The notes under the pieces are model-generated. The model made no database searches. It was not told the DNA's origin and saw nothing but the letters and a program-made list of their open reading frames with translations. From a virus, in the IMG/VR virus record IMGVR_UViG_3300022602_000133, positions 1 to 54,135 of that record: DNA of 54,135 bases; one strand, written 5' to 3'. A program made the translations under genes and the position numbers. Shown piece after piece: positions 1,155 to 19,794 of the stretch. How positions within the stretch are numbered: position 1 is the first letter of the stretch; every line of letters starts with the position of its first letter.

Positions 1155-1175
1155 AGAACCCCCGTAATTTGCTGT

Positions 1176-1204: not shown

Positions 1205-1228
1205 AAGATTTGATGCTCAAATTATAAG

Positions 1229-2182: not shown

Positions 2183-2191
2183 ATGTAATCC

Positions 2192-3553
2192 TTAGAATGT
2201 TGTTATATAACTTACACCTATGTTCCAAATATCTGAAGTAGTAACAGCAGTTCCAGAATTATTTGTAGCACTTAAAGTTGTACTGTTATATAATCTTGCC
2301 GACATTTGATAATCTTTGTATCCTGTTGATATTATATTCACAGATACGGAACAAGAAGCACCGCCAAAATTTGTGCCATTAACTGCAAATGGCATTCCTG
2401 TAATAGTCAACTGGGCTCCTGTTGCTAACGCGGCACCTGCATAGCTGTTATCAACACCAAGTATTACTAATCTTCCTATTTTTACATACCAACCTGCATT
2501 TGTTTGAGCAGAGCCGCTACCAATGGTAGGAGTCCATGTTCCTGTTTCGTAATCATTTAATGTACTATTGATCAATGCACCAGCTTGACCCGAATACTGG
2601 TCAAATACAACACCTGCGCCAGTTGTATTGAATTGTAAATTTCCGTAAGATAATATACCATTGCTCGGCGGTGCTGTGTATGTGTTGGCACCTTGACCAA
2701 TACTGACACCGTTTTGGAATCCAGTAGTGCTACCTATTCTGTTGGCAAAACTATAAAAGTTACTGCCAGGGTCTGCAGATACAAGCGAACCCATAGTAAG
2801 ATAGCTGCTGAAAGATCCAGTTGTTCCAGTAAAGTTGCCAGTAACGTTTGCCGCACCGTTGACATCAAGTAAACGTGCAGGGTTGGTAGTGCCTACACCC
2901 ACGTTGCCGTTGGCCAAGACTGTAACTGCGGTTGTACCGCCAGCGTTTGTTTGTAATGTTAAAGCAGTTGCACCAGCACTGGTAATTGTACTGGCTGTAG
3001 TCGTTCCACTTAATACAAGATTGCCAGCCAAGTAAGCACTACCAACTGCGCCTGCTGTAGCTGGGATAGCATTAAGTACGCTACTTACGTAGAAACTTAA
3101 TATTGCTACAAGATCACCAGATACCGCACCTTGTGCTAGTATTACAGTAGTACCGTTAGTTGCGGTGTAATCTGCATTACCTAATAATGAACCGTTACGA
3201 TAAACTTGTATAAATCCTACGGTATAACTTGGAGGAGTAAATGTTGTTTGATTACTGGTCGCTGTAAATTCTGTATATGTTCTGTAAGCTGTTGTAGTTA
3301 CACCGCTTGCTGGTATACCTAAATATCTGGCACTGATATTGCCAGTACCGCTTGGAGGTGCTTGTGTAAATGTTAAGGTACTACCGTTAACACTATATGT
3401 ACTTGGGTCTTGTACCAAACCATGTACTGTTACAATCACACTTGCTGTATTAGCAGGTGCTACACTAGTACCAAAAATTGTCTGGTTAGCAGTACCGTTA
3501 AAAGTATCTACTAAAAACGCTGATTGGGTGACTGGATTTCCTATAATTGGCAT
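2192..3553 (-). CDS. Tail fibre protein with beta-sandwich N-terminus
   Basis: A 453-residue fibre. Residues ~1-80 form the 'ANQTIFGTSV...VIVTVHGLVQDPSTYSV...LTFTQAPPSG' module common at the N-terminus of phage fibre or baseplate-attached proteins, followed by a second related module (TTFTPPSYTVGFIQVYRNG). The middle has the TALTLQTNAGGTTAVTV and GNVGVGTTNP shaft element. The C-terminal ~120 residues start with LNDYETGTWTPTIG, a common entry into a globular fibre tip. The same N- and C-terminal architecture occurs in the gene at 6066-7592, so these two are paralogues with different tips. Confidence 0.78.
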   Translation of the reverse strand: MPIIGNPVTQSAFLVDTFNGTANQTIFGTSVAPANTASVIVTVHGLVQDPSTYSVNGSTLTFTQAPPSGTGNISARYLGIPASGVTTTAYRTYTEFTATSNQTTFTPPSYTVGFIQVYRNGSLLGNADYTATNGTTVILAQGAVSGDLVAILSFYVSSVLNAIPATAGAVGSAYLAGNLVLSGTTTASTITSAGATALTLQTNAGGTTAVTVLANGNVGVGTTNPARLLDVNGAANVTGNFTGTTGSFSSYLTMGSLVSADPGSNFYSFANRIGSTTGFQNGVSIGQGANTYTAPPSNGILSYGNLQFNTTGAGVVFDQYSGQAGALINSTLNDYETGTWTPTIGSGSAQTNAGWYVKIGRLVILGVDNSYAGAALATGAQLTITGMPFAVNGTNFGGASCSVSVNIISTGYKDYQMSARLYNSTTLSATNNSGTAVTTSDIWNIGVSYITTF

Positions 3554-3744
3554 TTGTTATCCTTAACAGTTAGCGGCCAACTTGGATTAGTTGCTCCGCT
3601 ACCTATTCCTACATATCCGCTTGTAAGTACTGTAATAGCCGTAGTACCACCGTTGACCTGTAATGTCAAAGGCTGTCCAGCGGCTGACCCTATTGGTCCG
3701 CTTAACGGTGCAAGTCCTGTGTAGTCTACGGTACTTAAAGCCAT
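3541..3744 (-). pseudogene. Truncated tail-fibre remnant (67 codons)
   Basis: This short frame has its own start and ribosome site (AAGGATAAACA before ATG) and encodes the fibre shaft start: LTLQVNGGTTAITVLTSGYV and GIGSGATNP, as in the neighbouring fibres. It then stops shortly after. The last seven codons (KDNKCQL) are simply the ribosome site and first codons of the next gene read in another frame. At most neighbouring junctions the TAA of TAAGGA is the in-frame stop; here that TAA is out of frame. The pattern looks like a deletion within a fibre gene that joined its N-terminus to the next gene's leader in the wrong frame. It could still be expressed as a short peptide. Confidence 0.6.
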
Positions 3745-3753
3745 TGTTTATCC

Positions 3754-4017
3754 TTATTCAGGTTGTTGAGCGTTTTGTGCTGCCAAGGCGGCTTGATATG
3801 CAGCAACTACTTCTGTTGTCCATAGTGCTTGAGCTACCGCTACTACTCTTGGATCTTGACCTGTTAAGTCTGCACCTGGTGCTAATACCCAACGGTGATA
3901 GCTGGCACTTAATTCTTTACCGTCTTCTAAAATTGAAGTCTTTTCACGTACTTGAATTTGCTCGTCTGCTAGTACTTCAATTTTGTCTATTATCACTTCT
4001 TTACTCAATGTTGACAT
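3754..4017 (-). CDS. Small conserved phage protein of fibre clusters
   Basis: An 87-residue soluble protein: an N-terminal beta-strand-like part (KIEVLADEQIQVREKT), a central ELSASYHRWVLAPGADL segment, and an Ala-rich helical C-terminus (VVAVAQALWTTEVVAAYQAA). I recall small proteins with the same 'dkievl..kqiqVr..t.i..dG.els.s.hR..l.Pg.d' layout beside structural genes of many phages; their role is unknown. It has the best ribosome site in the window (AAAGGAG, five bases before ATG), suggesting high expression. The 62 bases upstream (4018-4079) hold only this leader and a weak hairpin. Confidence 0.62.
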   Translation of the reverse strand: MSTLSKEVIIDKIEVLADEQIQVREKTSILEDGKELSASYHRWVLAPGADLTGQDPRVVAVAQALWTTEVVAAYQAALAAQNAQQPE

Positions 4018-4079
4018 ATCATCTCCTTTGTTTTAATGTCCGCCCAACACATCCATGCTGGGTATTTAAAAATTATTCC

Positions 4080-6056
4080 TTAGTTAGCTGCAAAAATATT
4101 CCAATAACTTCCATCACAGAACAACAACGCCCACTTGCCCGCAGTGTTGGTAAGAATTGCATTTGTTACACCACCCGATGCCAATGCTGTTACATTATTT
4201 GATGCAGAGTTAACAAGTTGTGCTGATTGTGTTCTTACAAACAACATTCTTCCCGCATTAGATGCAGGGGTTGGAAGTGTTAGTGTACATGTGCCCGTCA
4301 AACTATACGCGGTCAGCCAAGTGTCAGTTGGTTGTACTGTATAGCTTGTAGTAAATCCCGCAGACCCAGTTATTGCCACAGCACCGTTAATTGACATGTT
4401 GCCGCCTAATAACATATTTCCGCTGGCACCAATACCACCGTTAACTACTAACGCACCTGTGTATAACGGTGTAAAATTATTATAAGGAACAGAACCGCTG
4501 ACTGTTAAAGTAAAATTATTTGTACTTGAATCTGTAATATAAGCCGAAGAACTTGCTACGTTTAATAATAATATTGTGCCAGTGATAGCAGTTAATGCCG
4601 CTGTTGGTGGAACAAAGTTAGCTGAGTATATCGCTGTACCAGATACAATTCTTAAATTAGTTATATAACCGTTTGCATAAGTGCTGTCTCTAGGATCGTA
4701 ACCAATGTAAGTAGTAGCACCAGTGCTACCAATAGTTCCTGTAATTGCTGTACTACCTGTAGTAGTTGCTTGAACACCGTCTACAAAAAGTTTTAATACT
4801 GAACCAGTACTTACAGCTGCCAAGTGGTGCCAGTTTCCATCGTTTACATATACATTAGAAATTACATCGTTAAGATTTCCCCATGTAAATGTAAAATAAT
4901 TTTGACCCGATGTTGAATTATTGGCTTTGAATGCCCAAGTTCCAGAACTTGGAGATCCTGATAAATTTTGACCAATGATTGTTGCGTAGTTAGGTTCAGT
5001 TCCATTAGATTTCCACCAGCATTCAACTGTCCACGCACCAGACCCTAAGTTGCCTGATGCTGTTGGAACTGACAAGTAGTTAGAACTTGTAAGTAGCAAA
5101 CTGCCACCTACGGCGGCTAGCGTAGTGCTTGTGGTTGGAATAGCAATACCGCCTGTTACAGTCAACTTGTTAGCATTGCTTAATACCATTGCTGGTGTAA
5201 ATGAAATTGCTCCAGAAGCAGATCCACTTGCGGCGGTATAAAAGTTATATTGACCACCAGATACTGTCATCTTATTGGCATAGCCAGTAATAGCATAGAT
5301 ATCATTGCTAGAGCCAGCATAACTATTCCAGTAGATGCTGCCATTGACACCAGTGTTAACAAATGATAGTGCAGAGTTTGTTGTTTGGCTTGAACTACCA
5401 ATTTGGAAACTTTTCCAACTTGCTGGCCAAGAATAAGGACTACCTGCGATAGCCATGTTGCCATTATTATCAAGTGTCAGTGCTTGATTATAACTTATGC
5501 TTGTACCTTGTGTACCTGTTGGAGCTACAAACCATTGGAATTGTCCGCTAGGTGTTTGTCTAAAAATTGTAGCATAACTGTTGGCAATATAAGTGCTGTT
5601 AGTAACACTATTATTGTAGTTGTTATAACTTAAATCTACACCGTTAATACTGGTACTAAATGCACCACCTTGAGATAATTGTAGTGCTGTAACGCTACCG
5701 CTTGAAGTGCTCCATGCGCTTGGCGTGACATTCAAACCCAAGTAACCATAAGGATCCAGCACCATGTTGGTTGTTGATCCATTTAAAAATTCTATGTTAC
5801 CTTCAGCTGGTATATTATAGTAACTACCAATAGCTGCTTTTTGATTGCCTGCTCCATTCTTAAAACTGATAGCGCCAGCAGCTTGTGATGCACCTGTGTT
5901 GTTTTGGAATATGATACTTTGGTTGCCAGTAAAACGCAAATTACCGTTGACAATTTCTACTTTTTCATTAGGACTAGCCGTGCCAATACCAATCAAACCT
6001 GTGCTTGATGCTGTTATGTAACTACTCAGTGCGGCTAAATTTGCGGCTTGTGTCAT
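4080..6056 (-). CDS. Tail fibre with LamG-like lectin domain
   Basis: A 658-residue fibre. The N-terminal half has two shaft elements (GLIGIGTASPNEKVEI near residue 20 and 'NQALTLDNNGNMAIAG' near 190). Residues ~320-505 form a concanavalin A-like/LamG sandwich, with the characteristic 'GAWTVECWWKSNG' opening strand, 'DGNWHHLAAVSTGSVLKLFVDG' turn and 'YIGYDPRD...GYITNLRIVSGTAIY' closing strands. Such domains bind sugars or proteins, so this is a likely receptor-binding protein. The last ~100 residues (TLPTPASNAGRMLFVRT...GGKW-like end) resemble fibre tips. The stop TAA of the upstream gene is fused to its ribosome site (TAAGGA). Confidence 0.8.
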   Translation of the reverse strand: MTQAANLAALSSYITASSTGLIGIGTASPNEKVEIVNGNLRFTGNQSIIFQNNTGASQAAGAISFKNGAGNQKAAIGSYYNIPAEGNIEFLNGSTTNMVLDPYGYLGLNVTPSAWSTSSGSVTALQLSQGGAFSTSINGVDLSYNNYNNSVTNSTYIANSYATIFRQTPSGQFQWFVAPTGTQGTSISYNQALTLDNNGNMAIAGSPYSWPASWKSFQIGSSSQTTNSALSFVNTGVNGSIYWNSYAGSSNDIYAITGYANKMTVSGGQYNFYTAASGSASGAISFTPAMVLSNANKLTVTGGIAIPTTSTTLAAVGGSLLLTSSNYLSVPTASGNLGSGAWTVECWWKSNGTEPNYATIIGQNLSGSPSSGTWAFKANNSTSGQNYFTFTWGNLNDVISNVYVNDGNWHHLAAVSTGSVLKLFVDGVQATTTGSTAITGTIGSTGATTYIGYDPRDSTYANGYITNLRIVSGTAIYSANFVPPTAALTAITGTILLLNVASSSAYITDSSTNNFTLTVSGSVPYNNFTPLYTGALVVNGGIGASGNMLLGGNMSINGAVAITGSAGFTTSYTVQPTDTWLTAYSLTGTCTLTLPTPASNAGRMLFVRTQSAQLVNSASNNVTALASGGVTNAILTNTAGKWALLFCDGSYWNIFAAN

Positions 6057-6065
6057 TTATTGTCC

Positions 6066-7592
6066 TTAAAAATTAGCTGGATATGTTATTGAAACAACAA
6101 ACGTATTAGCGGTGGTCAAGTTAGTGTTGACCATTGCCGTGTTAGCATTTGCACTGGCAGCAGTGTTGATACGAACGTTTGTGATACTGGTTGTATTAGG
6201 GCCTAAGTGTATATAAATTCCTGTAATCGCTGTGTTTATTAAATAAAATCCAATACTTCCTGCTGAATACACGTTGCTTGAATTAACTGATGTGAACGGC
6301 AAACCTGAAAAATAAATGTTACCACTTAACGTGTTAACAGCAAAACCAACTTGCCATGAGCATGTTACCATGGCTCCAACTTTAACATAGTATCCTGCTT
6401 GAAGTGTATATGTTGCAGCTCCACCGCCACTTGCAGTTATTGTAGGTGTAAAAGTTCCAGTTTCGTAATCGTTTAATATGCTGTTTGTTAGTGCTGAGTT
6501 ATTACTAAATTGTACACCTTGCCCCGATACTGGAAACTGTAATGTTCCTGTACTTAACAGACTCATTCCAAGTACAGGAGCAGTTAGAGTAGGTCTTGTG
6601 TAAAAGTTCAAATTACAAGCTGTATCACCCTGTGTTGAATTGGCTTTTACACCTTGTATGCCGCCAGTAAATGCAAAGTCTGTAGGAATTGATGTTGAAT
6701 AACGACCATAGAATCCAATTGCGCCTCCAACACCCGCTGTAGCCGCGGTAGTATCTGAAACTGCTAAACTTGGTTGTGAGAAGTTAGTAGCACCCGAACC
6801 AATTGCACCAAACGATTGTATTGGTGCATTACTGTAAGCCTGAATCTGAGAAGTACCAACAATAAATCTACCAGCGTAATCTAAGAATGCACCTACAGTA
6901 CCAGCACCGTTATCTGCTTTATATGATAGTCGCAAGCTAAGTCCATAGCCGCCTGTTCCGCCACTACCACCAGTTAATGCATCTATAGCGGCGGCATTAG
7001 TAGTAGTTCCGCCACTGGCGTTGGGTGCTATAAAATAAATTCTGCCAGCTGTTGTAGAAGTGTTTTGATTTGCATAAGCAATTGGATTAACAAGAACTAA
7101 TCTACCATCTGCACTTACAAGTGTACCGTCGCCTGATATTGTTAAATTTTTAGCGTTGGTATTTCCACTAATTGGATTAGTGCTTGATGTGCCAACACCT
7201 ATAAAATTATTTAAATCAACAGTTAATGCTGTTGTTCCGTTAGTCTGTAATGTTAAATTACTTGCTACACTATTAATATTACTAATGCTACCTAACTGTG
7301 CTGTATTAACTGTACCAGCACTTGGTGCAATAGTTTGTGTGATTGGGCTAGTGTATTCTACCCAAATATTATTTGATCCTGAAGGCGGAGCACTTGTGAA
7401 TGTTAAAGTAGTGCCGCTAACTGTAAATGCTGTGTTAGGATTTTGTGCAACGTTAGCCACATGCACTAGAATTTGTGCCGCACTGGCAACACTACTAGGC
7501 AAAGTAAATGCCGTAGTACTTCCATTACCGCTAAAGTATGCTACTTGCGCGGTATATTGTTGACTTGTACTTGTATTACCAATGAATGCCAT
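6066..7592 (-). CDS. Tail fibre protein, paralogue of the 2192-3553 fibre
   Basis: A 508-residue fibre. Residues ~15-85 are the 'FSGNGSTTAFTLP...ILVHVANVAQNPNTAFTVSG...FTSAPPSGSNNIWVEY' module. The SNLTLQTNGTTALTV and IGVGTSSTNP shaft element follows, and the C-terminus begins with ILNDYETGTFTPTITASGGG. Layout and order match the 453-residue fibre at 2192-3553, with a longer central shaft. It begins one base after the stop of the next gene up and has no clear Shine-Dalgarno site, so it probably depends on translational coupling. Confidence 0.77.
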   Translation of the reverse strand: MAFIGNTSTSQQYTAQVAYFSGNGSTTAFTLPSSVASAAQILVHVANVAQNPNTAFTVSGTTLTFTSAPPSGSNNIWVEYTSPITQTIAPSAGTVNTAQLGSISNINSVASNLTLQTNGTTALTVDLNNFIGVGTSSTNPISGNTNAKNLTISGDGTLVSADGRLVLVNPIAYANQNTSTTAGRIYFIAPNASGGTTTNAAAIDALTGGSGGTGGYGLSLRLSYKADNGAGTVGAFLDYAGRFIVGTSQIQAYSNAPIQSFGAIGSGATNFSQPSLAVSDTTAATAGVGGAIGFYGRYSTSIPTDFAFTGGIQGVKANSTQGDTACNLNFYTRPTLTAPVLGMSLLSTGTLQFPVSGQGVQFSNNSALTNSILNDYETGTFTPTITASGGGAATYTLQAGYYVKVGAMVTCSWQVGFAVNTLSGNIYFSGLPFTSVNSSNVYSAGSIGFYLINTAITGIYIHLGPNTTSITNVRINTAASANANTAMVNTNLTTANTFVVSITYPANF

Positions 7593-7593
7593 A

Positions 7594-7920
7594 TTAGATT
7601 GCCGTTAATGCTGATACCCAAACATCGCCACTTGTAGCCGCGCTGTTGATTACACTTAAACTATCACTTGCTATTAAAACTACTCTGCTACCTTGTATAA
7701 TTTCTAATGAACCGCCTACTGGAACAGTTGCTTGATATACCAAATAATAGTTCACCGAACTTCTTGTGATATAAACGCTGGTTGTGATTGGAGCTGCTGT
7801 AGTGTTAGTCACAATCAAACTGGCGATAGCCACTGTACCAGAAGCAATACTAGATATTACTGTAGCTGCACTTGTTCCTACGTTCTTATAAGCATAACTT
7901 GTATTTGCGTATGTTGTCAT
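7594..7920 (-). CDS. Small beta-rich virion accessory protein
   Basis: A 108-residue protein dominated by alternating hydrophobic and Thr/Ser residues (VAIASLIVTNTTAAPITTSV, then YLVYQATVPVGGSLEI). It looks like a single beta-sandwich of the type seen in small proteins between fibre genes of T4-like aquatic phages. The protein at 30460-30786 has the same length and plan ('VVNVSITNRNSTAIQIN...IEYQTTIVANG'), and 51154-51720 contains a related C-terminal half. The role is unknown; a tip or adaptor function is inferred from context. Confidence 0.6.
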   Translation of the reverse strand: MTTYANTSYAYKNVGTSAATVISSIASGTVAIASLIVTNTTAAPITTSVYITRSSVNYYLVYQATVPVGGSLEIIQGSRVVLIASDSLSVINSAATSGDVWVSALTAI

Positions 7921-7923
7921 TTG

Positions 7924-9687
7924 TTAACCCATCATAAAAGATAAAAAATATGCAGGGTCAGTTGCTATTGTGATGCTACCTGCACCATTTGTAACATACA
8001 TGCTTTGTCCCGCTGTAATTGTTGCAGCACTATACGTAGTACCGTTTCCAATTGGTATTTGTCCGTTTGCTGGTGTTGTACTTATGCCAAGCCCGCCATA
8101 GGTTACACCAATTATTGTTCCTTGCCATACACCAGTACCAATTGTGCCTACTGTAGTTAAACTACTTGTAAGAACTGTAGTACCTAGTGTGCTAGAGCTT
8201 AATACTGTACCGCCGTTAATTTGATATACACCACTACTACTTGCTACGTTTACTGTAGGATTATTAATAGTTACTGTACCAGTACTTGCGCCAACGTTTA
8301 TTGCTGTGGCTGCGCCGCCAAAGTTTAATGTTGTTGCTACAGTATTGTATAAATTTTGTGTTGTTTGACTACCAACTACGGTAGGATTGTTAATAGTTAC
8401 TGTGCCGGTGCTTGCACCTACTGTAATTGCTGTGCCTGCGCCAAATGCATTTACAGTAGTGCTAGTTGTATTGAATACGTTGGCTATAGCGGCACTAGAT
8501 ACTAGTGTTCCGCCAGTCATTGTCAAATTACCAGCTGTTGTAATTTGCAATAATTGTATTCTTGATACATCGGTACCATTGTAAAATGTTATATTGTCTG
8601 CTGTACCAACACTGATACGTCCATTACCGTTAGGAGTGCCTGACACATAATCAATCAATATACCGTCACTATAATATCCTGTATATGATCCGTTGACAGC
8701 AAGACCATTTGTAACTACTACGTTGGTATTAATTGTCTGTTGATTAACTGTAGTTGTTGTTCCATTTACTGTTAAATTACCAGTAACTATTAAATTATTG
8801 TTGACTGTAGTGGTACCTGTAACGGCACCCATATTAATAGTAGTAGCTGACCCAAACGCATTAACAGTTGTAGCTGTTGTATTGACTAATGCAAACGTAG
8901 TACTAGATGTATTCAAACTAGTAGTAATGCTAGGGTTAGTTACAGTTAATACATTAGTGCTGGCATTATATACTATACTAGTATTAATTCTAGCTGTAGT
9001 AAGACTTCCAGATGTAAGGCCAGTAAACACTGGATACAATGTACTACTAGAACTATCAGTAGTAATAGTTGCACCGGCTGCTGCCCAACTTAATGCTCCT
9101 GATCCATTACTTACTAGTGCATAACCTGGACTAGTAGCATCTGCACTAGGTAACGTATATGTGGTACTACCTGCATTTGCTGGTACAGTTAGTGTGACAC
9201 TTCCGCTACTACTACCTGCTATAGAAACGCTGCCTTTTACAGATAACACACTGGTGTTACCATTATATGTTAAATTAGTGTTGACTTTGGCCGCGGTAAA
9301 ATTACCAGTGGTCAATGTAGTCATAGTAGGATATAGTACTGTATCTGTTACATCAGTAGCAATTGCCGCGCCAGCCGCCGCCCAACTTAGCACTCCGGCA
9401 CCATTACTGACTAGTGCAAATCCTGCGGTTGTAGCATCCGCACCTGGTAACGTCCATGTAACATTACTGGCAATTGATGCCGGTGCTTGGAATCCAATAT
9501 AATTTCCGCCGCCTGTGGCTGCAAATTTTAATGATGTGGTTAACGAATATAAGTTACCAGCAAGATATGTATTAATATTACCTAATGTAGTAATATAGTT
9601 TGTAGGTCCTGCTGGATCAACAATCGGTACAAGTGTTGCACTGCTAACATTACTTTCTGTTGATAATTGTGAAAACTTTATTGACAT
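7924..9687 (-). CDS. Tail fibre with duplicated shaft repeats
   Basis: A 587-residue fibre. Residues ~1-50 carry a 'SIKFSQLSTESNVSSATLVPIVDPAG' start typical of virion-attached fibre N-termini. Two near-copies of a repeat follow: 'TWTLPGADATTAGFALVSNG' then LSWAAAGA, and TYTLPSADATSPGYALVSNG then LSWAAAGA. Later come 'TVTINNPTVV' beta repeats and the GTIGTGVWQGTIIGVTYGG motif common near fibre C-termini, ending in YFLSFMMG. It starts three bases after the gp13-like gene's stop, so it is probably read from the same minus-strand transcript. Confidence 0.75.
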   Translation of the reverse strand: MSIKFSQLSTESNVSSATLVPIVDPAGPTNYITTLGNINTYLAGNLYSLTTSLKFAATGGGNYIGFQAPASIASNVTWTLPGADATTAGFALVSNGAGVLSWAAAGAAIATDVTDTVLYPTMTTLTTGNFTAAKVNTNLTYNGNTSVLSVKGSVSIAGSSSGSVTLTVPANAGSTTYTLPSADATSPGYALVSNGSGALSWAAAGATITTDSSSSTLYPVFTGLTSGSLTTARINTSIVYNASTNVLTVTNPSITTSLNTSSTTFALVNTTATTVNAFGSATTINMGAVTGTTTVNNNLIVTGNLTVNGTTTTVNQQTINTNVVVTNGLAVNGSYTGYYSDGILIDYVSGTPNGNGRISVGTADNITFYNGTDVSRIQLLQITTAGNLTMTGGTLVSSAAIANVFNTTSTTVNAFGAGTAITVGASTGTVTINNPTVVGSQTTQNLYNTVATTLNFGGAATAINVGASTGTVTINNPTVNVASSSGVYQINGGTVLSSSTLGTTVLTSSLTTVGTIGTGVWQGTIIGVTYGGLGISTTPANGQIPIGNGTTYSAATITAGQSMYVTNGAGSITIATDPAYFLSFMMG

Positions 9688-10521: not shown

Positions 10522-11976
10522 ATGCCAAGACTCTCATTATATAAACCGGAAAAAGGGCTTGATTACAAGTTCATAGATCGTCAAGCCTCGGAAATGTTCC
10601 AAGCGGGCGGAACTGATGTGTATGTACACAAGTATTTGGGTGCTAATACAGACTCTACGAATGCCACAGCTGATCAGCCTAATTATGCCACAACTGCGGT
10701 TACAAACATACAAGATTTGTTATTTTTAGAAAATCGTGACAGAACTTACGATACAGAAATCTACAGAATTCGCGGGTTGTATAATGTACAAAATATCGAC
10801 TTTAACTTAAGTCAATTTGGTTTGTTCATCGATAACGATACCTTGTACATGACTGTACATATCAACGATTTTATCAAGTACATAGGACGTAAACCCATTA
10901 GCGGCGATGTACTAGAATTGCCACATTTACGTGATGATTTTGCCCTAAATGATTTTGATTTTGCACTGCCAAGATACTATGTTATCGAGGATGTAGGTCG
11001 TGCTAGTGAAGGATTTAGTGTAACTTGGTTCCCGCATTTATACAGATTAAAACTTAAACGTATTACTGATAATCAGCAATTTGCACAAATCTTTAATCAA
11101 CAGGCTACAGATGCTAACGGAGATCCTGTAGAAAATACTACTTTAAGAGACTTGTTAAGTACACACAATCAAGAATTACAAATTAGTGATGCTGTAGTAC
11201 AACAAGCAGAAATAGATGCCCCTAAGAGTGGTTACGAAACTAGACAATATTATACACTGGCTGTTGATCCTACTACAGGAAAACCTGTATTAGATACAGC
11301 AGACGAAACTAGTATACTAGCCAGTAATGCTAGTGCTGGTGTTAATGCTAGTTCAACTAATGCTGTTCCAAAACGAAGCGGCTATTCAGGTTATTTGCTA
11401 GGAGATGGATATCCTGCAAATGGTTACGAGTTTGGTTTTGGTATTCAGTTCCCTGCAAATCCCGCTGCCGATGATTTCTTCTTACGTGTAGATATGTTGC
11501 CTAATAGATTGTATAGATTTGACGGAAAACAAAATGCATGGATTGCTGTAGAAGATTCAGTGCGTATGAACATGACTAATACTGATACTCGTAGTACATT
11601 AAAAACTGGATTTATTAACAACGATAACTGGACTTATAACAACGCTGTTGTTAGTGATTTCTCTAACCTTGCTTTGAATGCTACTGTTGCTAGAACATTA
11701 ATTGATAGTAATGTCACCGGATTATATGTAGTATTGAAATTAGATACAGTTCAATTAGAATATGTAGTTGCAGACCACACTGGAATATTCACATCTTACA
11801 GCCACATGAATGCTCAAGGCATCACAAGTAACAAACTACAAATTAATTTACCTATAATTAATGAAGTACAACAAACAATACCATATGCAGGACAATGGAC
11901 TGTGACAATCTACAATTACAGAGAACCGCAGAAACAATCTATTAGCAAGGTACTTAAACCACAGGCGGATTTATAA
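10522..11976 (+). CDS. Neck protein, T4 gp14-like, enlarged
   Basis: A 484-residue virion protein. Residues ~65-175 follow the plan of T4 gp14: a 'TEIYRIRGLYNVQN' stretch, LSQFGLFIDNDTLYMTVHIN (gp14 has a comparable 'FGMQVQDEVTLSI' strand), and GRKPISGDVLELP (gp14 'EPKEGDLIYFP'), ending in YYVIEDVGRASEGF. gp14 completes the neck with gp13. The protein is nearly twice the length of T4 gp14, the extra being C-terminal beta-rich sequence. I chose ATG 10522 over the upstream in-frame start at 10465, whose first 19 codons overlap the divergent gp13 gene and promoter. It overlaps gp15 by one base (TAATG). Confidence 0.68.
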   Translation: MPRLSLYKPEKGLDYKFIDRQASEMFQAGGTDVYVHKYLGANTDSTNATADQPNYATTAVTNIQDLLFLENRDRTYDTEIYRIRGLYNVQNIDFNLSQFGLFIDNDTLYMTVHINDFIKYIGRKPISGDVLELPHLRDDFALNDFDFALPRYYVIEDVGRASEGFSVTWFPHLYRLKLKRITDNQQFAQIFNQQATDANGDPVENTTLRDLLSTHNQELQISDAVVQQAEIDAPKSGYETRQYYTLAVDPTTGKPVLDTADETSILASNASAGVNASSTNAVPKRSGYSGYLLGDGYPANGYEFGFGIQFPANPAADDFFLRVDMLPNRLYRFDGKQNAWIAVEDSVRMNMTNTDTRSTLKTGFINNDNWTYNNAVVSDFSNLALNATVARTLIDSNVTGLYVVLKLDTVQLEYVVADHTGIFTSYSHMNAQGITSNKLQINLPIINEVQQTIPYAGQWTVTIYNYREPQKQSISKVLKPQADL

Positions 11977-13454
11977 TGCAACATTTTTATGATGGGCAAA
12001 TAAGAAGATACATTACGCAGACTATTCGTGCGTTAAGTAACTTTGTGGTCAAATACGGCGACGGTACACTGGTACGTATACCAGTTATGTATGGTGATGC
12101 AGACCGTCAAGTGGCTAGTATTATTCGTAATAATAGTGAAAACAAAGTTAATAGCGTTCCACGAATAAGCGTCTATGTAAGTTCTTTGGCATTAGATAGA
12201 GATCGATTAAGTGATCAAACTTACGTAGGTACTGTTAATATCCGTGAACGTGATATTGATCCTAATACAAATGCTTATACAACTGGGCAAGGACGCAACT
12301 ATAGCATTGAACGATTGATGCCTACTCCGTTTAAACTAACTATGAAGTGCGATATTTGGAGTGCTAACACTGATCAAAAATTACAAATACTTGAACAAAT
12401 TTTAGTTTTGTTTAATCCTAGTTTAGAACTACAAACCACAGACAACTATATTGACTGGACCAGTTTAACTGTATTAAATCTAAACGATATCAACTGGGAT
12501 AGTAGAACTGTCCCAGTGGGTAATGACACACCAATTGATATTGCTACACTAACATTAGATACTCCTATATGGATTAATCCTCCAGTTAAAGTCAAGCACT
12601 TGGGCGTTATTACTAAAATTGTTACAAGCATGTACAATTCAAGTAGTACTAGCGATACTTATATTGACGGATTAGGTCAAGATCCAATGGCGGCTACAAC
12701 TACATTTACTGATATTTTAAGTTTGGCTATTAATACTCCGCAAGATTATCGTCTAGAAGTTTACAATGGACAAGCTATTTTAATTGGTGCAAATGAAAGC
12801 GTGGTTAGTGTTGGCGGCGGCACTTTAGATATTCCAGTTCGACAAGGAACTCCTATTAATTGGAATATATTATTCAGCCAAACTCCTAACAAATATGTAG
12901 CTGGGTCTAGTCAACTGTATCTAACACAACCTAACGGTAGTATGATTGTAGGAACGTTTGCTATTAACAGTTTAGATGAAACTATACTACAAGTTAATTG
13001 GAATCCAGACACTCTAACAGCTAACACAGGCATAGACAGTCAAGGCAATATAGAACCTGCTGCAGGTTACAATACAAATTCAACACAATATAGACCCAAC
13101 AGCCCAGGCACATTTGATGCTATCATAAATCCACAAACTTATGATCCAAGCGATCCTAACAAACACGGTACTATTTCATCTATTGCTGTTGGTACTAGAT
13201 TCCTTATAATTGAGGATATTGGCGCTGTAAATAATACTACAGTAGCTTGGGGTGCATTAGTAGCAAAAGCTAACGATATTATAGAATACGATGGTTCTGC
13301 ATGGCATGTAATTTTTAATGCTAGCCAGGAATCAAGCATCATGGTGTGGCAGACTAATATATATACTGGAATACAATACTTATGGAACGGTGTTTCCTGG
13401 GTTAAGTCATTCGAGGGTGTATACGAGGCTGCTAATTGGAAAATAGTACTGTAA
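11976..13454 (+). CDS. Tail sheath stabiliser/completion protein, T4 gp15-like
   Basis: A 492-residue protein. It begins with HFYDGQIRRYITQTIRALSN, parallel to T4 gp15 'FYNSSFRRYATLMGDLFSN', and continues with VRIPVMYGDADRQ, PRISVYV, 'MPTPFKLTMKCDIWSANTDQKLQILEQI' in parts, LVLFNPSL and a conserved PIWINPPVKVK. gp15 caps the tail and binds the neck. T4 gp15 is about 270 residues; the extra ~200 here form a C-terminal extension ending in W-rich repeats (DIIEYDGSAWHVIF, YLWNGVSWVKSF). This is the most secure structural call in the window. Confidence 0.85.
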   Translation: MQHFYDGQIRRYITQTIRALSNFVVKYGDGTLVRIPVMYGDADRQVASIIRNNSENKVNSVPRISVYVSSLALDRDRLSDQTYVGTVNIRERDIDPNTNAYTTGQGRNYSIERLMPTPFKLTMKCDIWSANTDQKLQILEQILVLFNPSLELQTTDNYIDWTSLTVLNLNDINWDSRTVPVGNDTPIDIATLTLDTPIWINPPVKVKHLGVITKIVTSMYNSSSTSDTYIDGLGQDPMAATTTFTDILSLAINTPQDYRLEVYNGQAILIGANESVVSVGGGTLDIPVRQGTPINWNILFSQTPNKYVAGSSQLYLTQPNGSMIVGTFAINSLDETILQVNWNPDTLTANTGIDSQGNIEPAAGYNTNSTQYRPNSPGTFDAIINPQTYDPSDPNKHGTISSIAVGTRFLIIEDIGAVNNTTVAWGALVAKANDIIEYDGSAWHVIFNASQESSIMVWQTNIYTGIQYLWNGVSWVKSFEGVYEAANWKIVL

Positions 13455-13885
13455 AAGAACCGATAATTTGTAGTGGTGCGTTATTTTACGCTAAATCTAC
13501 ACGACGTTTTTTACTATTACAAAAAGCACACGGCAAGCACGAAGGGTCTTGGGGCTTAGTCGGCGGTACTAATATCACTGGCGAAACTCCATGGCAAGGT
13601 CTTCAAAGAGAAATCAACGAAGAAATTGGCCCGTGTCCAGAAATAATCAAAACAATTCCACTTGAAACATTTGTCAGCAATGATAAAGTGTTTAATTTTC
13701 ACACCTACTTGTGTGTTATTGAAGAAGAATTTGTACCATATCTAAGCGATGAACATCAAGGGTGGGCATGGGCTACTGTAGATCGCGCTCCAAAACCCTT
13801 ACATCAAGGATTACGCAATAGTTTTAGTTCAAAAACTATTCGCACAAAATTACAAACAGTATTTGATCTAGTGGATTTAATATGA
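13436..13885 (+). CDS. Nudix hydrolase
   Basis: A 149-residue protein with a complete Nudix box at residues 44-66 (GTNITGETPWQGLQREINEE then IGP), giving the metal-binding REINEE and the upstream Gly and Glu at the required spacing. Nudix enzymes hydrolyse nucleoside diphosphates linked to another group; the substrate here is not predictable. The start is TTG at 13436, supported by a GAGG site seven bases upstream and the lack of any in-frame ATG before the first strand (IICSGALFYA). It overlaps gp15 by 19 bases and the next gene by four (ATGA), so it is translationally coupled to both. Confidence 0.85.
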   Translation: MENSTVKEPIICSGALFYAKSTRRFLLLQKAHGKHEGSWGLVGGTNITGETPWQGLQREINEEIGPCPEIIKTIPLETFVSNDKVFNFHTYLCVIEEEFVPYLSDEHQGWAWATVDRAPKPLHQGLRNSFSSKTIRTKLQTVFDLVDLI

Positions 13886-14463
13886 AAGAACATTCAGTTA
13901 ATTCATTAGATAATTTTATTGCAGGTTGGTATCTTGAAGATACAAGTATATGCGACGAAGTTATTGATTTTTTTAAAAATAGCCCAAATCAAGTTCCAGG
14001 AACATTTGGACAAAATTATGCCAAAGTCGATTTAAACGGTAAAGACAGTACTGATGTGTATGTTGAATGGAAGTCCACTATTGGTCAACGTTATTTTAAA
14101 CATCTTAATCAAGTTGCACAACAATATATTGCCAAATACCCTTATTGTAATGAATATGCCAAATGGGGAGTGATCCAACCATTTAACATTCAATACTACA
14201 AACCCGGTGGCGGCTTTTATGGCTGGCACACTGAACGCAGTAGTACCATAATGCCGCTAGTCACAAGACATTTGGCATTTATGACGTATTTAAATGATGT
14301 TAGTGACCAAGGAGAAACAGAGTTTTTCCACCAAAAGATTAGGATAAAACCAGAGAAAGGCCTTACACTAATATGGCCTGTAGACTGGACACTAACACAT
14401 CGAGGAATTCCTTCCCCCAGTCAAGAAAAATATATAACAACGGGGTGGTTTAACTACGTATGA
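13882..14463 (+). CDS. 2-oxoglutarate/Fe(II) oxygenase (prolyl-hydroxylase-like)
   Basis: A 193-residue double-stranded beta-helix oxygenase. Probable Fe(II) ligands are H115 or H116 with E118 in GGFYGWHTERS, and distal H173 in TLTHRGIPS; K183 in KYITTGWF is placed to bind 2-oxoglutarate. RHLAFMTYLNDV-SDQGETEFF is the typical strand-turn-strand of phage P4H-like enzymes, and IKPEKGLTLIWP the next strand. The first motif is HxE rather than the usual HxD. The substrate is unknown; related enzymes hydroxylate Pro in proteins or small molecules. It overlaps both neighbours by the four-base ATGA, marking one operon. Confidence 0.85.
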   Translation: MKEHSVNSLDNFIAGWYLEDTSICDEVIDFFKNSPNQVPGTFGQNYAKVDLNGKDSTDVYVEWKSTIGQRYFKHLNQVAQQYIAKYPYCNEYAKWGVIQPFNIQYYKPGGGFYGWHTERSSTIMPLVTRHLAFMTYLNDVSDQGETEFFHQKIRIKPEKGLTLIWPVDWTLTHRGIPSPSQEKYITTGWFNYV

Positions 14464-15206
14464 TTAGTTTCTTTTTTAAACGTCGTCAAAGAACTGTAGA
14501 CTGTTTTACCGACGATCCTAGTGCTTACAAATATCATGCTATCACTCCGGCTGCAGATTACTATCCAGAGTGGTGGTTAAAAATGCCCAACTATCAAACT
14601 GTTCCTGATAAAAATGGGTTGGCTGTTGATACTCCTACTATAAAACGATGTGTCGGGTTGATGAATTTATATCAACGAGGAGTAGTATTACCTTTATGGT
14701 CAAGTATTGCTATCGAAACTACACAAGAAGGTTATAGATATTCATTTGCCAAACAACATTATAACAAAGAATTACCATTATCGGATTATCATCCAGATTG
14801 GCAAACAGGCCCAGCATTTAATGATGTATTACATTTAAAAATGATTAGCCCTTGGTTCCTTGTTCAATCGGAATATTACAAATATGTATTTCAACCGATG
14901 ACTTGGAATACTGTAAATCAGTGGAATCAGTATACAATTCTGCCAGGCGTTATGGATTTTAAATATCAAAATTCCACTAATGTCAATATGTTCCTTGCTA
15001 AAAACAGTCGAATTGACATTGAAGCCGGTACTCCTATGTACCAAATTATACCAATAACTGATGATGAAATTATCTTTAAAAATCATTTAGTCGAAACAGA
15101 ACATGTAAAAAAAATTTACAATAGTAGATTCGGAACTTATTCCAATTCTTATAAAAATATTAAGAAATTTTATGAAAATAAAAAACGTTGCCCTTTAGGA
15201 TTTTAA
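14460..15206 (+). CDS. Unassigned protein of the oxygenase operon
   Basis: A 248-residue soluble protein I cannot assign with certainty. Recognisable segments are YYPEWWLKMPNYQTVP near residue 34, TIKRCVGLMNLYQRGVVLPLW with SSIAIE at ~59-85, a central 'NDVLHLKMISPWFL' strand, and AGTPMYQIIPI near 195. The 'PEWW...', 'C.gl.dl...G...P.W.di' and late 'GTP..q..P' layout resembles an uncharacterised family (possibly DUF6065) I associate with oxygenase clusters in aquatic phages; that comparison is from memory. The C-terminus is Lys-rich. Placement between two oxygenases in an overlapping operon suggests a shared pathway. Confidence 0.55.
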   Translation: MISFFFKRRQRTVDCFTDDPSAYKYHAITPAADYYPEWWLKMPNYQTVPDKNGLAVDTPTIKRCVGLMNLYQRGVVLPLWSSIAIETTQEGYRYSFAKQHYNKELPLSDYHPDWQTGPAFNDVLHLKMISPWFLVQSEYYKYVFQPMTWNTVNQWNQYTILPGVMDFKYQNSTNVNMFLAKNSRIDIEAGTPMYQIIPITDDEIIFKNHLVETEHVKKIYNSRFGTYSNSYKNIKKFYENKKRCPLGF

Positions 15207-15788
15207 ATGATTAAAGATATTATAGTATTAGATGATTTTATTTGTAAACAATATCAAGATGATATTGAAACAACATTATTAGGAGATTCAAACACTCCTT
15301 GGTATATGTTAGACGATGTTACACTAGGATTTAAAGATCTTCCTAGTAAAAACTTTGGACTAAGTCATGTGTTAAAAAACGACCACGGCATCATTAGTAA
15401 TCTTTATCGATTTATGATGCCCATGGTGTTTACAGCTATAGATAAAATTGGTTACACAGTTACCGATGTATATTTGGCAAGAAGTTTTACACAGTTGCCA
15501 TCACTTAATAACGAACCCAATTGGCCGCATGTGGACATGAATATTCCACACCTAGTATGTTTGTATTATGTAAATGATTCACAAGGCGATACTGTTATCT
15601 ATAACGAAATGGTCGATGATGTGCTTGTTACTGAAGTTAATACATATCAATACACCGAGCTTCAACGTATAACTCCTAAAAAAGGAAGAGTTGCTATTTT
15701 CAGTGGTACTAGATTTCATTCTAGTGGAAAACCTGTTAGTGGCAAAAGATGTATTCTTAATTTTGATTTAAATGTTAAACCACAATAA
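15207..15788 (+). CDS. 2-oxoglutarate/Fe(II) oxygenase
   Basis: A 193-residue oxygenase. Fe(II) ligands are H108 and D110 (NWPHVDMNIPH, a canonical HxD) with H171 (GTRFHSSGKPVSGKR), and R181 is the likely 2-oxoglutarate contact. LVCLYYVNDSQGDTVIYNE is the expected strand pair, with KKGRVAIFSG before the distal His. The sequence differs clearly from the first oxygenase of the operon, so they probably act on different substrates. It starts directly after the TAA of the upstream gene (TAAATG) and overlaps the next gene by 17 bases. Confidence 0.85.
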   Translation: MIKDIIVLDDFICKQYQDDIETTLLGDSNTPWYMLDDVTLGFKDLPSKNFGLSHVLKNDHGIISNLYRFMMPMVFTAIDKIGYTVTDVYLARSFTQLPSLNNEPNWPHVDMNIPHLVCLYYVNDSQGDTVIYNEMVDDVLVTEVNTYQYTELQRITPKKGRVAIFSGTRFHSSGKPVSGKRCILNFDLNVKPQ

Positions 15789-16407
15789 TTATTTTCCTGT
15801 CGAACCCTGGTTTCCTGTTCCATTATATATTAATTGGGTAAGCCAAAAAAATTTTAATGGTATACAACAAGACTTTCAGCGGGTCGTTGATATATTAAAA
15901 GCAAATGGCACTTTTACATATCGCGAAGACTGGAACAGTCATAAAACTAGTGACGTTACTTTTACAAAAAACTTGTTTGAAGAACATAATTTAACTTTAT
16001 TTCAACAAGAACTAGACGAGCATATTTTCAATTATTTAAATTTAATTAATAGTCCAGTTGCTAAAAAAGAAGAAAATTTTAAATATAAGATATTTGGCAG
16101 CTGGATGACACTAAGTACTAAAAAAGACTACGCACACATTCATACACACGGAAGTAGTGACCTTTCTGGAGTTTATTACTTCCAAACTAACGGCAATGAT
16201 GGTAGTATTTTCTTTGAAAATCCTAGTAAGTATTTGGAAAATTCCTATTGCTTTTCGCATATAGATAGTAGAGCATCTTGGAAACCTGAAGTGGGTAAGT
16301 TACTATTATTCCCAGGATGGTTACCTCATGGCGTAACTACTAACACAACTGACCACGAACGTATTAGCGTGAGTTTTAATATTATATTTGAGAGGAATTA
16401 TGGTTGA
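15772..16407 (+). CDS. 2-oxoglutarate/Fe(II) oxygenase, tandem copy A
   Basis: A 211-residue member of the family whose core reads 'HxH..g..LSGVYY'. Here AHIHTHGSSDLSGVYYF at residues 121-137 supplies H122/H124/H126 and D130 as candidate ligands; LPHGV (H186) is the distal His and R197 in ERISVSF the co-substrate Arg. It shares with the next gene the N-terminal WFPVPLY, DWNSHKTSD, GSWMTL and C-terminal VSFNI-x-FER, so the two are tandem paralogues. TIGR02466-type enzymes share this core; substrates are unknown. Overlaps of 17 and 8 bases with neighbours indicate coupling. Confidence 0.8.
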   Translation: MLNHNNYFPVEPWFPVPLYINWVSQKNFNGIQQDFQRVVDILKANGTFTYREDWNSHKTSDVTFTKNLFEEHNLTLFQQELDEHIFNYLNLINSPVAKKEENFKYKIFGSWMTLSTKKDYAHIHTHGSSDLSGVYYFQTNGNDGSIFFENPSKYLENSYCFSHIDSRASWKPEVGKLLLFPGWLPHGVTTNTTDHERISVSFNIIFERNYG

Positions 16408-16987
16408 ACTTTGGTTTCCAACACCTATATATTATGGAGATATAACAGGTGACACATTTACTACTGTACAAGAAGAGTTCGACTCTGTCTTTAAAACACT
16501 AATCAATGATAGGACATTTCAATATATGCCGGATTGGAATAGCCATTTATTAAGTGATATTAAGTTTGAAAAAAACTTAATAGAAGATTATCATCTCGAT
16601 GCTTTCAGAGACGAATTAGATCGTCACATACAAGAATATTTAAAAGAAATAGAATTTCCAGGTAAAAAGAAATATAAAATTGCCGCATCCTGGATGAGTT
16701 TTTATCAAAAAGGTGACTTTGCACATACTCACTGTCACGGAGATGCTGATTTATCAGGTGTATACTATTTTAAATCGGTTAACGAGAATGGTAAAATCTT
16801 TTTCGATACTCCTGTGAAGACTTTGACTAATTCTTATTGTTTTAAGCATTTGGTTAGCAGAGTTTATTACCCTCCTAAAGAAGGAAGACTAATGCTTTTT
16901 CCTAGTTGGGCAGAACATGGTGTGCAAACTATGACAGAGGAAGGTCATAGAGTTGCTGTTAGTTTTAATATAGAATTTGAGAGATAA
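16400..16987 (+). CDS. 2-oxoglutarate/Fe(II) oxygenase, tandem copy B
   Basis: A 195-residue paralogue of the preceding gene. It has WFPTPIYYG at the start, DWNSHLLSD near 45, ASWMSFYQKGDFAHTHCHGD at 96-115 followed by ADLSGVYYF, distal H173 in AEHGV and R184 in GHRVAVSFNIEFER. Candidate metal ligands are H109/H111/H113 and D115. The start is ATG 16400, directly after an AGAGGA site, not the in-frame TTG at 16388. The two copies differ most in the N-terminal 90 residues and in the loop after VYYF, which suggests different substrates after duplication. Confidence 0.8.
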   Translation: MVELWFPTPIYYGDITGDTFTTVQEEFDSVFKTLINDRTFQYMPDWNSHLLSDIKFEKNLIEDYHLDAFRDELDRHIQEYLKEIEFPGKKKYKIAASWMSFYQKGDFAHTHCHGDADLSGVYYFKSVNENGKIFFDTPVKTLTNSYCFKHLVSRVYYPPKEGRLMLFPSWAEHGVQTMTEEGHRVAVSFNIEFER

Positions 16988-16988
16988 T

Positions 16989-18161
16989 ATGAAAATTGCT
17001 GTATTAGGTGCCGGTACCGCTAGTTGTATTTTTAGTATGATTGCTTGCAGGTTTATTTCTAAGCCTGTTGAAATTACTTGTATTCATGATCCTAGTATAT
17101 CTACTATACAAGTGGGCGAAACCGCTAGTCCAGCAATATTATCTGCACTACAAGATTGTTTAGATTTTGAAGTATCTGAAGATTTAGAAAAATTAGATGG
17201 TACATTACGTACCGGAGTTAAACATTTCTGGAGTCAAGCTAGCAATGATTTTTCTATACTATATGATAGACAATTTGGTATACACCTAAACAGTACAAAA
17301 CTTAGCGAATTTGTCATGGGTCGCTTAAAAGAAAAATATCCTTTCTTTAAAGAACAACATGATACAATAATCAAAACAAACAAAACCACAGGCGAAGTAA
17401 CAACAGAATCTGGCTCCGAAGTATTTGATTTAGTAGTGGACTGTACAGGATTTGCTAACCCTGAATTATTTAAAACAGGTGTGTTAGTTAAACCTTCGTT
17501 TGCAGCTGTTAACTCTGTTATTATCTGGCCTGAATGGAAACAATACAACGAATATTATACTACAGCTCAAATACACGATAATGGTTGGATGTTTGGAGTT
17601 CCCCTTACATCAAGAAAAGCATGGGGATATTTGTACAATAACGAAATTACTACATATGAAGAAGCCAGAGAAGATTTTAAACGGTTAAAAAATCTCGATG
17701 ACGACACGTTAGATAAATGTCGTAGTTTTTCATGGAATCAATATCTAAGAGTTAAAGCTATTGACGAGCGTGTGTTATTTCTTGGTAATAATTTATTTTT
17801 CTTTGAGCCAGCAGGTGCAATACCTTTGCACTATTATTTGAATATTAGTAGAATTATTTCTGAAGATTTTGGAAATGTTGAATTTAATTGGCGTTATCAT
17901 AAAATGATTAACACATATCATCAACAAATGATGAATCAACATCAAGATGTAACTGCTATTGCTTACGCAGGTGCTAATCGACTAGAAACTGACTTTTGGA
18001 ATAAAACAAAAACGTCTGCAATCGCTAAATTACAGACGTCCGATGATTGGCACAAGTGGCTTAGAAATCAATTAGAAACTGATCATTATTTTACTCACCC
18101 AAAAGAATTAATGATTCAATACATTAATAAATTTGGGTTAGATCTTGATCAGTTTTTGTAA
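16989..18161 (+). CDS. Divergent flavin-dependent halogenase-like protein
   Basis: A 390-residue flavoprotein of the tryptophan-halogenase group. The FAD-binding motif GAGTAS is at 7-12, VGETASPAI at 42-50 matches the 'VGE.T.P' element, and K78 in RTGVKHFW occupies the position of the catalytic Lys (K79 in PrnA). DCTGF is at 151-155 and LGNNLFFFEPAGA near 275. The halogenase WxWxIP motif is altered to NGWMFGVPL (second Trp replaced by Phe, Ile by Val), and the protein is ~130 residues shorter than its neighbour. It may be a halogenase with a changed substrate, or a flavin monooxygenase. ATG 16989 follows GAGAGA; its 3' end overlaps the convergent halogenase by 13 bases. Confidence 0.75.
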   Translation: MKIAVLGAGTASCIFSMIACRFISKPVEITCIHDPSISTIQVGETASPAILSALQDCLDFEVSEDLEKLDGTLRTGVKHFWSQASNDFSILYDRQFGIHLNSTKLSEFVMGRLKEKYPFFKEQHDTIIKTNKTTGEVTTESGSEVFDLVVDCTGFANPELFKTGVLVKPSFAAVNSVIIWPEWKQYNEYYTTAQIHDNGWMFGVPLTSRKAWGYLYNNEITTYEEAREDFKRLKNLDDDTLDKCRSFSWNQYLRVKAIDERVLFLGNNLFFFEPAGAIPLHYYLNISRIISEDFGNVEFNWRYHKMINTYHQQMMNQHQDVTAIAYAGANRLETDFWNKTKTSAIAKLQTSDDWHKWLRNQLETDHYFTHPKELMIQYINKFGLDLDQFL

Positions 18162-19711
18162 ATATTTTCTTTCAAGTATTCTATTATACTAGGATAGTCT
18201 TTAACAGCTTCATTCCATGTTGCTGTATGTTTACCTACAGCCTCTACTTGCTTGCTAAAATACTGTTTGGCATCTATCAAATCATATAAGAAATTATAAG
18301 CTGATAGCGTTGACATATCGCAAGGGTTATAATTCATACCTGCAGCAATACAATGAAAACCGCCTTCTGGATTAAATTGGAATCGTTGATATCTTTCCAT
18401 AGAATATGTTTTAACTCCTGGGATTGCTACAGCCTTTGGTTCGCTGAGTGTAGGATCGTAAACACGTTCCAGGTTATCTCTCCAATAATCTGTATCATCT
18501 CTTACGCTTAGTGCATAATGCATGGCTACAAATTCAGCAAATTGTCTAAATTCAGCTTTACATGCTAGGTTAAATCCATCACGTTCGAACCTACTAGATT
18601 GTCCTCTGCTAAGAGCTCTTACAAGATGCATTAAAAATTTGTGTACTGTGTACAACCCATTAGACTCTAATGGTTCAATAAATCCAGCACTTAATCCAAT
18701 AGCACACACATTCTTTTCCCAGACTCTTTCATGAATGCCTGTACGCATTGTAATATTTTTAAATTCTAATCCTTCAGTTTCGTATCCTTTGGATTTTAAT
18801 TTTTCAATAAATTCTGTTTTAGCAGCTTCATCTGAAATGTACTTGTCACTATAAACATATCCTGATCCCATACGGCTCCATAAAGGAATTTCCCACATCC
18901 AACCGTTAGATAATGCGGTACAGTTAGTATACACTACAAGTTGTTTTTCTTTATCTGTGTATTCTATTTTTGTTGCCCAGGCTTTATTATTAGGCAACAT
19001 ATCTGCGTAACTTTCAAACGGAACATTAAGTGCTTTATCTAATAACAAGCTCTTAAATCCTGTGCAATCGATAAACAAATCAGCAGTAACTTTAGTACCA
19101 TCAGCTAGTATTAGATGTTCGACTCCAGTTTCTCCAGTTTGTACATCTTGTACTTCTGCTTGTATATGTGTTAGACGGCCTTTACAATATACATCACGCA
19201 ACCAAATGCCAAACTTAGTTGCATCAAATTGAAATGCTGTTGTTCTTAAATATTGGTATCCTGGTAATACGCCGTTTAAATTTTTATCAAACTTATTAGC
19301 GTTAACTAATGCCATGGTTGAAAAATAACTATCAGCATAACTGCTATTTGGAGTTTCTGGGTACAGAGCTTTCTTAATATGCCAGTCGTTTATACCAGTA
19401 ACCGATTCTTCTAAAACAGGAAAACCGAACGGATAATGAAATCCTGTATCACCTACTTGATAAAAGTCTTCAAATCTAATACTAAGTTTATAAGTAGCAT
19501 CACATGCGGCCATAAAATCAGTATCTTTAATGCCTAGCATGTTTAACCAAACATTTATACCTTGAATAGTGCTTTCGCCTACACCAACTGTTGGCACATC
19601 TGGGCTTTCGATTAAGACAATTTCTTTATTTGGAAATTGATTTACTAGTGTAGCTGCTGTCATCCATCCAGCACTACCACCTCCAACAATTACAATTTTA
19701 TTTGTACGCAT
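18149..19711 (-). CDS. Flavin-dependent (tryptophan-type) halogenase
   Basis: A 520-residue enzyme with all family signatures: GGGSAGWMTAA at 10-20 for FAD, VGVGESTIQG at 42-51, the catalytic Lys K75 in ATYKLSIRF, DCTGF at 215-219, the halogenase-specific WMWEIP at 271-276, and GLSAGFIEPLESNGLY at 339-354, whose Glu corresponds to the active-site acid. The reaction would use FADH2, oxygen and a halide to form hypohalous acid, transferred through the Lys to an electron-rich substrate. No flavin reductase gene is in the window, so FADH2 must come from elsewhere. A viral halogenase (VirX1) is known from a cyanophage, and this is a plausible relative. Ribosome site AGAGGA precedes ATG. Confidence 0.9.
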   Translation of the reverse strand: MRTNKIVIVGGGSAGWMTAATLVNQFPNKEIVLIESPDVPTVGVGESTIQGINVWLNMLGIKDTDFMAACDATYKLSIRFEDFYQVGDTGFHYPFGFPVLEESVTGINDWHIKKALYPETPNSSYADSYFSTMALVNANKFDKNLNGVLPGYQYLRTTAFQFDATKFGIWLRDVYCKGRLTHIQAEVQDVQTGETGVEHLILADGTKVTADLFIDCTGFKSLLLDKALNVPFESYADMLPNNKAWATKIEYTDKEKQLVVYTNCTALSNGWMWEIPLWSRMGSGYVYSDKYISDEAAKTEFIEKLKSKGYETEGLEFKNITMRTGIHERVWEKNVCAIGLSAGFIEPLESNGLYTVHKFLMHLVRALSRGQSSRFERDGFNLACKAEFRQFAEFVAMHYALSVRDDTDYWRDNLERVYDPTLSEPKAVAIPGVKTYSMERYQRFQFNPEGGFHCIAAGMNYNPCDMSTLSAYNFLYDLIDAKQYFSKQVEAVGKHTATWNEAVKDYPSIIEYLKENIYKN

Positions 19712-19770: not shown

Positions 19771-19794
19771 AAAAAGGAGCCGAAGCTCCTTTTT
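19771..19794 (-). terminator. Intrinsic terminator with UUCG tetraloop
   Basis: AAAAAGGAGC and GCTCCTTTTT form a perfect ten-pair stem. Read on the minus strand the loop is TTCG closed by C-G, the extra-stable UUCG tetraloop, followed by a T run. It lies 16 bases past the stop of the minus-strand gene at 19810-20181, so it ends the late transcript from the adhesin block and insulates the halogenase gene downstream. It is the only strong intrinsic terminator I found. Confidence 0.85.

Follow-up and report, generated by a model that had tools for sequence, protein, structure and literature searches.

A 54,135-base IMG/VR virus record, analyzed over its whole length (the window) and originating from a T4-like phage, a virus of bacteria, contains two genes of the tryptophan halogenase family that converge near the neck genes (Table 1). 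We ask whether their products are cooperating flavin-dependent halogenases (FDHs), and whether the shorter product (SHORT; its neighbor is LONG) is a halogenase at all. A preliminary description of the sequence had suggested that the two might form a heteromeric or sequential pair, with altered chemistry in SHORT.

Locus and gene layout

Downstream of the gp15-like gene the plus strand carries a NUDIX hydrolase gene, the four 2OG-Fe(II) oxygenase-like genes with the phrog_7084 gene, and then SHORT; LONG runs in the opposite direction. ORF coordinates agree with the 13-base tail-to-tail overlap described before, and the reported length difference of 130 residues is exact (390 versus 520 aa). 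The terminator hairpin upstream of LONG suggests that LONG is its own transcription unit.

Table 1. Features of the locus, in window coordinates
Feature	Position	Strand	Remarks
T4 gp15-like tail sheath stabilizer	11976..13454	+	Pfam/profile match; identifies the locus as a T4-like neck region
NUDIX hydrolase	13436..13885	+	Profile match; in sister phages directly faces SHORT
Cassette 5′ of SHORT	13882..16987	+	Four 2OG-Fe(II) oxygenase-like genes and the phrog_7084 gene
2OG-Fe(II) oxygenase-like genes (n = 4)	Starts 13882, 15207, 15772, 16388	+
phrog_7084 gene	14460..15206	+	Within the cassette upstream of SHORT
SHORT, 390 aa, putative flavoprotein of FDH fold lacking the halogenation residues	16989..18161	+	ATG at 16989, stop ends at 18161
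SHORT codons G71-K78 (GTLRTGVK)	17199..17222	+	R74, 17208-17210; K78, 17220-17222
WMFGVP, SHORT residues 200-205	17586..17603	+	Replaces WxWxIP (alignment)
FFEPAGAIP, SHORT residues 271-279	17799..17825	+	Replaces FIEPLESNG (alignment)
SHORT/LONG tail-to-tail overlap, 13 bp	18149..18161
LONG, 520-aa VirX1-type FDH	18149..19711	-	Signature motifs all intact
UUCG intrinsic-terminator hairpin	19773..19792	-	Between the tail-fiber block and LONG; fold z-score -5.3

The phrog_7084 protein recurs by phage halogenases (in the window and at L043:5577-6365), and in cyanophage Syn10 its gene overlaps that of VirX1. A scan for relatives of the window's copy found only the near-identical contig L003.

Family membership and active sites

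By motifs, fold and clade, LONG is an orthodox, complete Trp-type FDH. It matches Pfam Trp_halogenase (PF04820) at E = 3e-109, and every signature previously listed for it is present: GGGSAG, K75 (within A-T-Y-K), WMWEIP (residues 271-276) and FIEPLES (344-350; FIEPLESNG when extended). Its best solved match is VirX1 (PDB 6QGM), the iodinating FDH of cyanophage Syn10, both in sequence (E = 4e-100) and in fold (TM 0.87-0.88 for the predicted model, which is unsure at residues 419-465). LONG falls in a VirX1-type phage clade of 15 (LONG and 14 others; support 100/100), with L016_long as its nearest relative, and is 38% identical over its length to the Syn10 gene. Matches to NCBIfam families of the QhpG/LodB/GoxB type were weak and below cut-off. 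Judged by its motifs LONG presumably halogenates: FAD reduced by a separate reductase would react with O2 to give a C4a-hydroperoxide, halide would turn this into HOX, and K75 and E349 would direct the HOX onto an aromatic substrate. The Syn10 locus also resembles the window, since it contains 2OG oxygenases, a phrog_7084 gene and another halogenase besides VirX1. Its two halogenase genes, however, lie in tandem and are each of full length, and SHORT is not of that type.

SHORT belongs to the same family, as had been proposed, with Trp_halogenase as its sole Pfam match (E = 4e-29). NCBIfam gave no match at E 0.01, the QhpG/LodB/GoxB protein-Trp-modifying flavoproteins included, and no Pfam or NCBIfam profile of geranylgeranyl reductases or other non-halogenase flavoproteins matched. 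Its AlphaFold model (mean pLDDT 90.9) has the Trp-halogenase fold, and 50 of the 50 PDB matches listed are Trp-halogenase-type FDHs (TMq about 0.83/~0.8). A geranylgeranyl reductase or other flavoprotein origin, raised earlier as the outcome that would undo the idea of a pair, is ruled out by Pfam, NCBIfam and fold matches alike. The Rossmann FAD motif noted before is indeed there as GAGTAS, though its third Gly is Ser. Most of the clade to which SHORT belongs likewise has Ser or Ala in place of this Gly of GxGxxG, and G7, G9, G43, E44, C152 and G154 are invariant there; SHORT probably still binds FAD.

As modeled, SHORT is a Trp-halogenase-fold protein by fold and not by active site. It shares the fold and the FAD frame with PrnA, RebH, PyrH and Thal (PF04820) but lacks their catalytic Lys, Glu and Ser, the halide-site Gly and the second Trp. 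It is also shorter by the box insert (~65 aa) and by ~55 residues at the C-terminus (57 relative to LONG). From the Lys position to the DCTG motif there are 74 residues in SHORT, against 137 in LONG and 134-145 in the FDH comparison.

The claim that SHORT keeps the catalytic Lys as K78 had to be dropped. An [AG]-[ST]-x-K motif holds K79 of RebH (A-S-Y-K; numbered 99 in the aligned chain, which is a tagged construct) and K75 of LONG, and the aligned residue of SHORT is R74 (GTLR); K78 comes four positions later and corresponds to LONG R79. Three independent registers rule K78 out: the multiple alignment, a global profile-profile alignment (100% probability) and the AlphaFold model strands (E72-74/E76-80 in SHORT versus E73-75/E77-81 in LONG). 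At the Lys, Trp, Glu, Ser and Gly positions the alignment thus gives R74, F202, G276, A277 and P279. The last three break Fx.Px.Sx.G in FFEPAGAIP, and these losses were overlooked in the preliminary description. Three FDH features are missing from SHORT: the catalytic Lys (PrnA Lys79), the catalytic Glu (PrnA Glu346) with Fx.Px.Sx.G, and WxWxIP.

WMFGVP does replace WxWxIP, as first read, but this change is neither decisive nor a sufficient explanation. Two phage proteins on the FDH side of the tree (L007_long and L016_b) read WMF[RK]IP (WMFRIP/WMFKIP) with Lys and Glu both in place, and two Trp are present in the flavin channel of QhpG, which is a monooxygenase (PMC7876137).

Published chemistry bears on the other losses. 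In Thal, all 19 replacements of Lys79, Arg included, abolish Trp bromination, whereas the K79T variant examined still forms C4a-OOH-FAD and HOX release by Lys79 variants stays at similar levels (PMC7948982). Glu346 of PrnA holds HOCl and accepts a proton from the intermediate (PMC9764358). In AbeH, Cl- is bound via the backbone amides of Thr357 and Gly358 (PMC11840605); by alignment P279 of SHORT takes the place of the AbeH halide-site Gly, and Pro offers no amide hydrogen. Fx.Px.Sx.G, or variants with a charged residue for Gly, is reported in all active FDHs (PMC8407142). A literature search on Thr348/Gly349 and K79R found nothing. Taken together, the losses aligned at Lys, Glu and Gly argue against FDH chemistry in SHORT, and the altered chemistry proposed earlier is probable.

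The short clade

A phylogeny placed SHORT within the Trp-halogenase family on a short-clade branch opposite the VirX1-type clade of LONG. A branch with support 99/98 (100 once three long-branch rows are removed) separates thirty short proteins from the rest of the tree, and the window's SHORT sits in a clade of 18 (100/100). SHORT and LONG are about 26% identical in their aligned part; this and their opposite sides of the tree rule out a recent duplication of LONG.

The replacements are shared across the core of the clade. Among 19 distinct viral proteins of the core, the second Trp is Phe in 19/19 and Glu is found at the Glu346 position in 0/19; the Lys79 position is Arg in 15/19, with Lys retained in 4/19, and the Gly349 position is Pro in 18/19. 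Twelve more distant short proteins all have the Phe (12/12) and the Lys (12/12), and seven of them the Glu, while rows on the FDH side have Lys in 28/28 and Glu in 25/28. Three sequences from bacterial MAGs on the short side (L068, L069 and L070) read WMFGVP and keep Lys, with Glu replaced by Val or Ile. With some members keeping both Lys and Glu, the wider short clade may include real halogenases. Between pairs of core SHORTs dN/dS is about 0.1-0.26 (dS is near saturation in wider pairs), and because of these low values we take SHORT to be a maintained clade and not one in decay.

No core member was found in cultured phages among the records examined. Among the closest known counterparts are the short members of the cyanophage cluster T4-GC 212 ‘PrnA’ (S-SSM5, S-SSM7 and S-ShM2), which are short-clade proteins 24-31% identical to SHORT with W-x-F for W-x-W, but which keep Lys and mostly keep Glu. 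That cluster joins genes of 1104-1167 nt, the short ones, and 1437-1593 nt under one name (PMC3037559), and the short ones carry the plain annotation tryptophan halogenase. In the part of the literature covered, no paper treats the short forms as distinct, remarks on their missing residues or reports the biochemistry of any SHORT protein; the SHORT family is so far annotated simply as ‘tryptophan halogenase’.

Several other records carry unusual halogenase-like genes. The 152.8-kb record L016 has four Trp_halogenase genes, three of them within about 8.5 kb (1017-9554), along with 2OG oxygenases and phrog_7084. Contig L063 has tandem SHORT-type genes (6815-7999 and 8001-9221) and, about 2 kb upstream of them, a gene of the LONG type. 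A phage contig from human faecal samples (L045, MT835646.1) encodes a 510-aa FDH with all motifs. Campylobacter phage vB_CcoM-IBB_35 (L035) encodes a 399-aa halogenase-like protein with WCWTIP, Lys and Gln at the Glu position; its branch is long and its placement unsure.

Function of SHORT and the question of pairing

The co-occurrence data do not bear out a conserved pair. In 40 virus records, many of them fragments, 7/30 of those bearing SHORT were also found to have a LONG-type gene, and 0/10 of those bearing LONG to have SHORT. In four sister phages (L048, L053, L060 and L061) SHORT lies by the same neck genes and directly faces NUDIX; the 2OG cassette is missing there, and so is an adjoining LONG. 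That LONG and SHORT are a convergently encoded heteromeric or sequential pair would fit their adjacency and 13-bp overlap, seen in the window and in near-identical L003, and the few other contigs with both genes; it is nevertheless very unlikely given the counts and the sister phages, a terminator that sets LONG apart from the tail-fiber block, and convergent transcription, which gives no co-regulation. The convergence is best read as a place where two opposed blocks of genes meet and accessory genes gather, because sister phages have SHORT facing NUDIX without LONG and because the UUCG terminator parts LONG from the tail-fiber block. In this it would resemble the variable g15-g18 region of cyanomyoviruses (PMC2984593). 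SHORT and LONG would each have been acquired separately into a variable cassette of oxidative enzymes by the neck genes, and would not be an obligate pair. A looser functional link between them may exist, given the tandem pairs of full-length halogenases in Syn10/syn9, P-TIM40 and S-RIM44 and the close neighbors of SHORT and LONG type in L049 (in tandem) and L063.

SHORT itself is very probably not a canonical Trp-type halogenase, and from its aligned residues we infer that it has lost halogenation. We give about an even chance to the reading that it is an FDH-derived flavoprotein that no longer halogenates and is most likely a monooxygenase or oxidase. It would stem from a separate, older branch of the FDH fold, in which the FAD-binding frame was kept and halogenation given up. 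With neither catalytic Lys nor Glu, with Pro in place of the halide-binding backbone NH and with no substrate box, it would most likely still use flavin, and its opened pocket might admit a bulky, perhaps macromolecular, substrate; its new reaction and substrate are conjecture. The precedent is QhpG, which has an FDH-like fold and hydroxylates peptidyl Trp rather than halogenating, with an open pocket for its protein substrate (PMC7876137). QhpG is closer to CmlS and SHORT has no NCBIfam match to it; the precedent is one of function and implies no kinship.

Some observations weigh against this monooxygenase or oxidase reading: the FAD binding it presumes meets a Ser or Ala at the third GxGxxG Gly in most of the clade, and Lys, or Lys and Glu, persist in some members. 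The same residues would also suit a pseudoenzyme partner or a bare source of HOX. As a dead pseudoenzyme, SHORT would serve LONG, or another cassette protein, as a partner with a regulatory, structural or flavin-delivering role. The loss of all classical catalytic residues in a fold kept under purifying selection agrees with this, as do LONG-type genes close by in the window, L049 and L063. We consider it rather unlikely, since SHORT is found in long contigs (153.7, 101.9, 71, 70 and 62 kb) without any LONG-type gene, short forms occur in the cultured phages S-SSM5, S-RIM4, S-ShM2, Sf-CH8 and S-SCSM1 with no LONG-type gene among the matches listed, and the FAD-site residues stay invariant. Distinctly less probable is that SHORT still halogenates through other residues (e.g. 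R74 or K78), or frees HOX onto bulky targets after loss of the box. HOX release by the Thal variants and the Lys, sometimes with Glu, retained in many short-clade relatives speak for it, but in the Trp halogenases known, Arg is no substitute for Lys79 (PMC7948982), nearly all core members have Pro at the position of the halide-site Gly, and Fx.Px.Sx.G is broken. A decaying halogenase pseudogene, to which the shorter length and the missing motifs might point, is hardly credible: ORFs are intact across divergent viruses, the low dN/dS and the clade-wide replacements contradict it, and the predicted fold is well defined.

Returning to the preferred reading of a non-halogenating flavoprotein, a bolder form of it is possible though doubtful, namely that SHORT is the first recognized member of a class of phage flavin monooxygenases that descend from FDHs, modify some macromolecule of the phage or its host, and have been concealed by the label ‘tryptophan halogenase’. 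If this is true, the short clade would record a conversion in steps, in which Phe replaced Trp first, Glu was lost next and Arg replaced Lys last. Members of the clade grade naturally from halogenase-like to non-halogenase active sites, and comparisons among them offer a way to test what Lys79, Glu346 and WxWxIP do, a matter under debate. Viral ‘tryptophan halogenase’ genes have been counted as auxiliary metabolic genes, in 20/153 cyanophage genomes (PMC10452541). Because a clade under that label lacks the halogenation residues, such counts may overstate viral halogenation.
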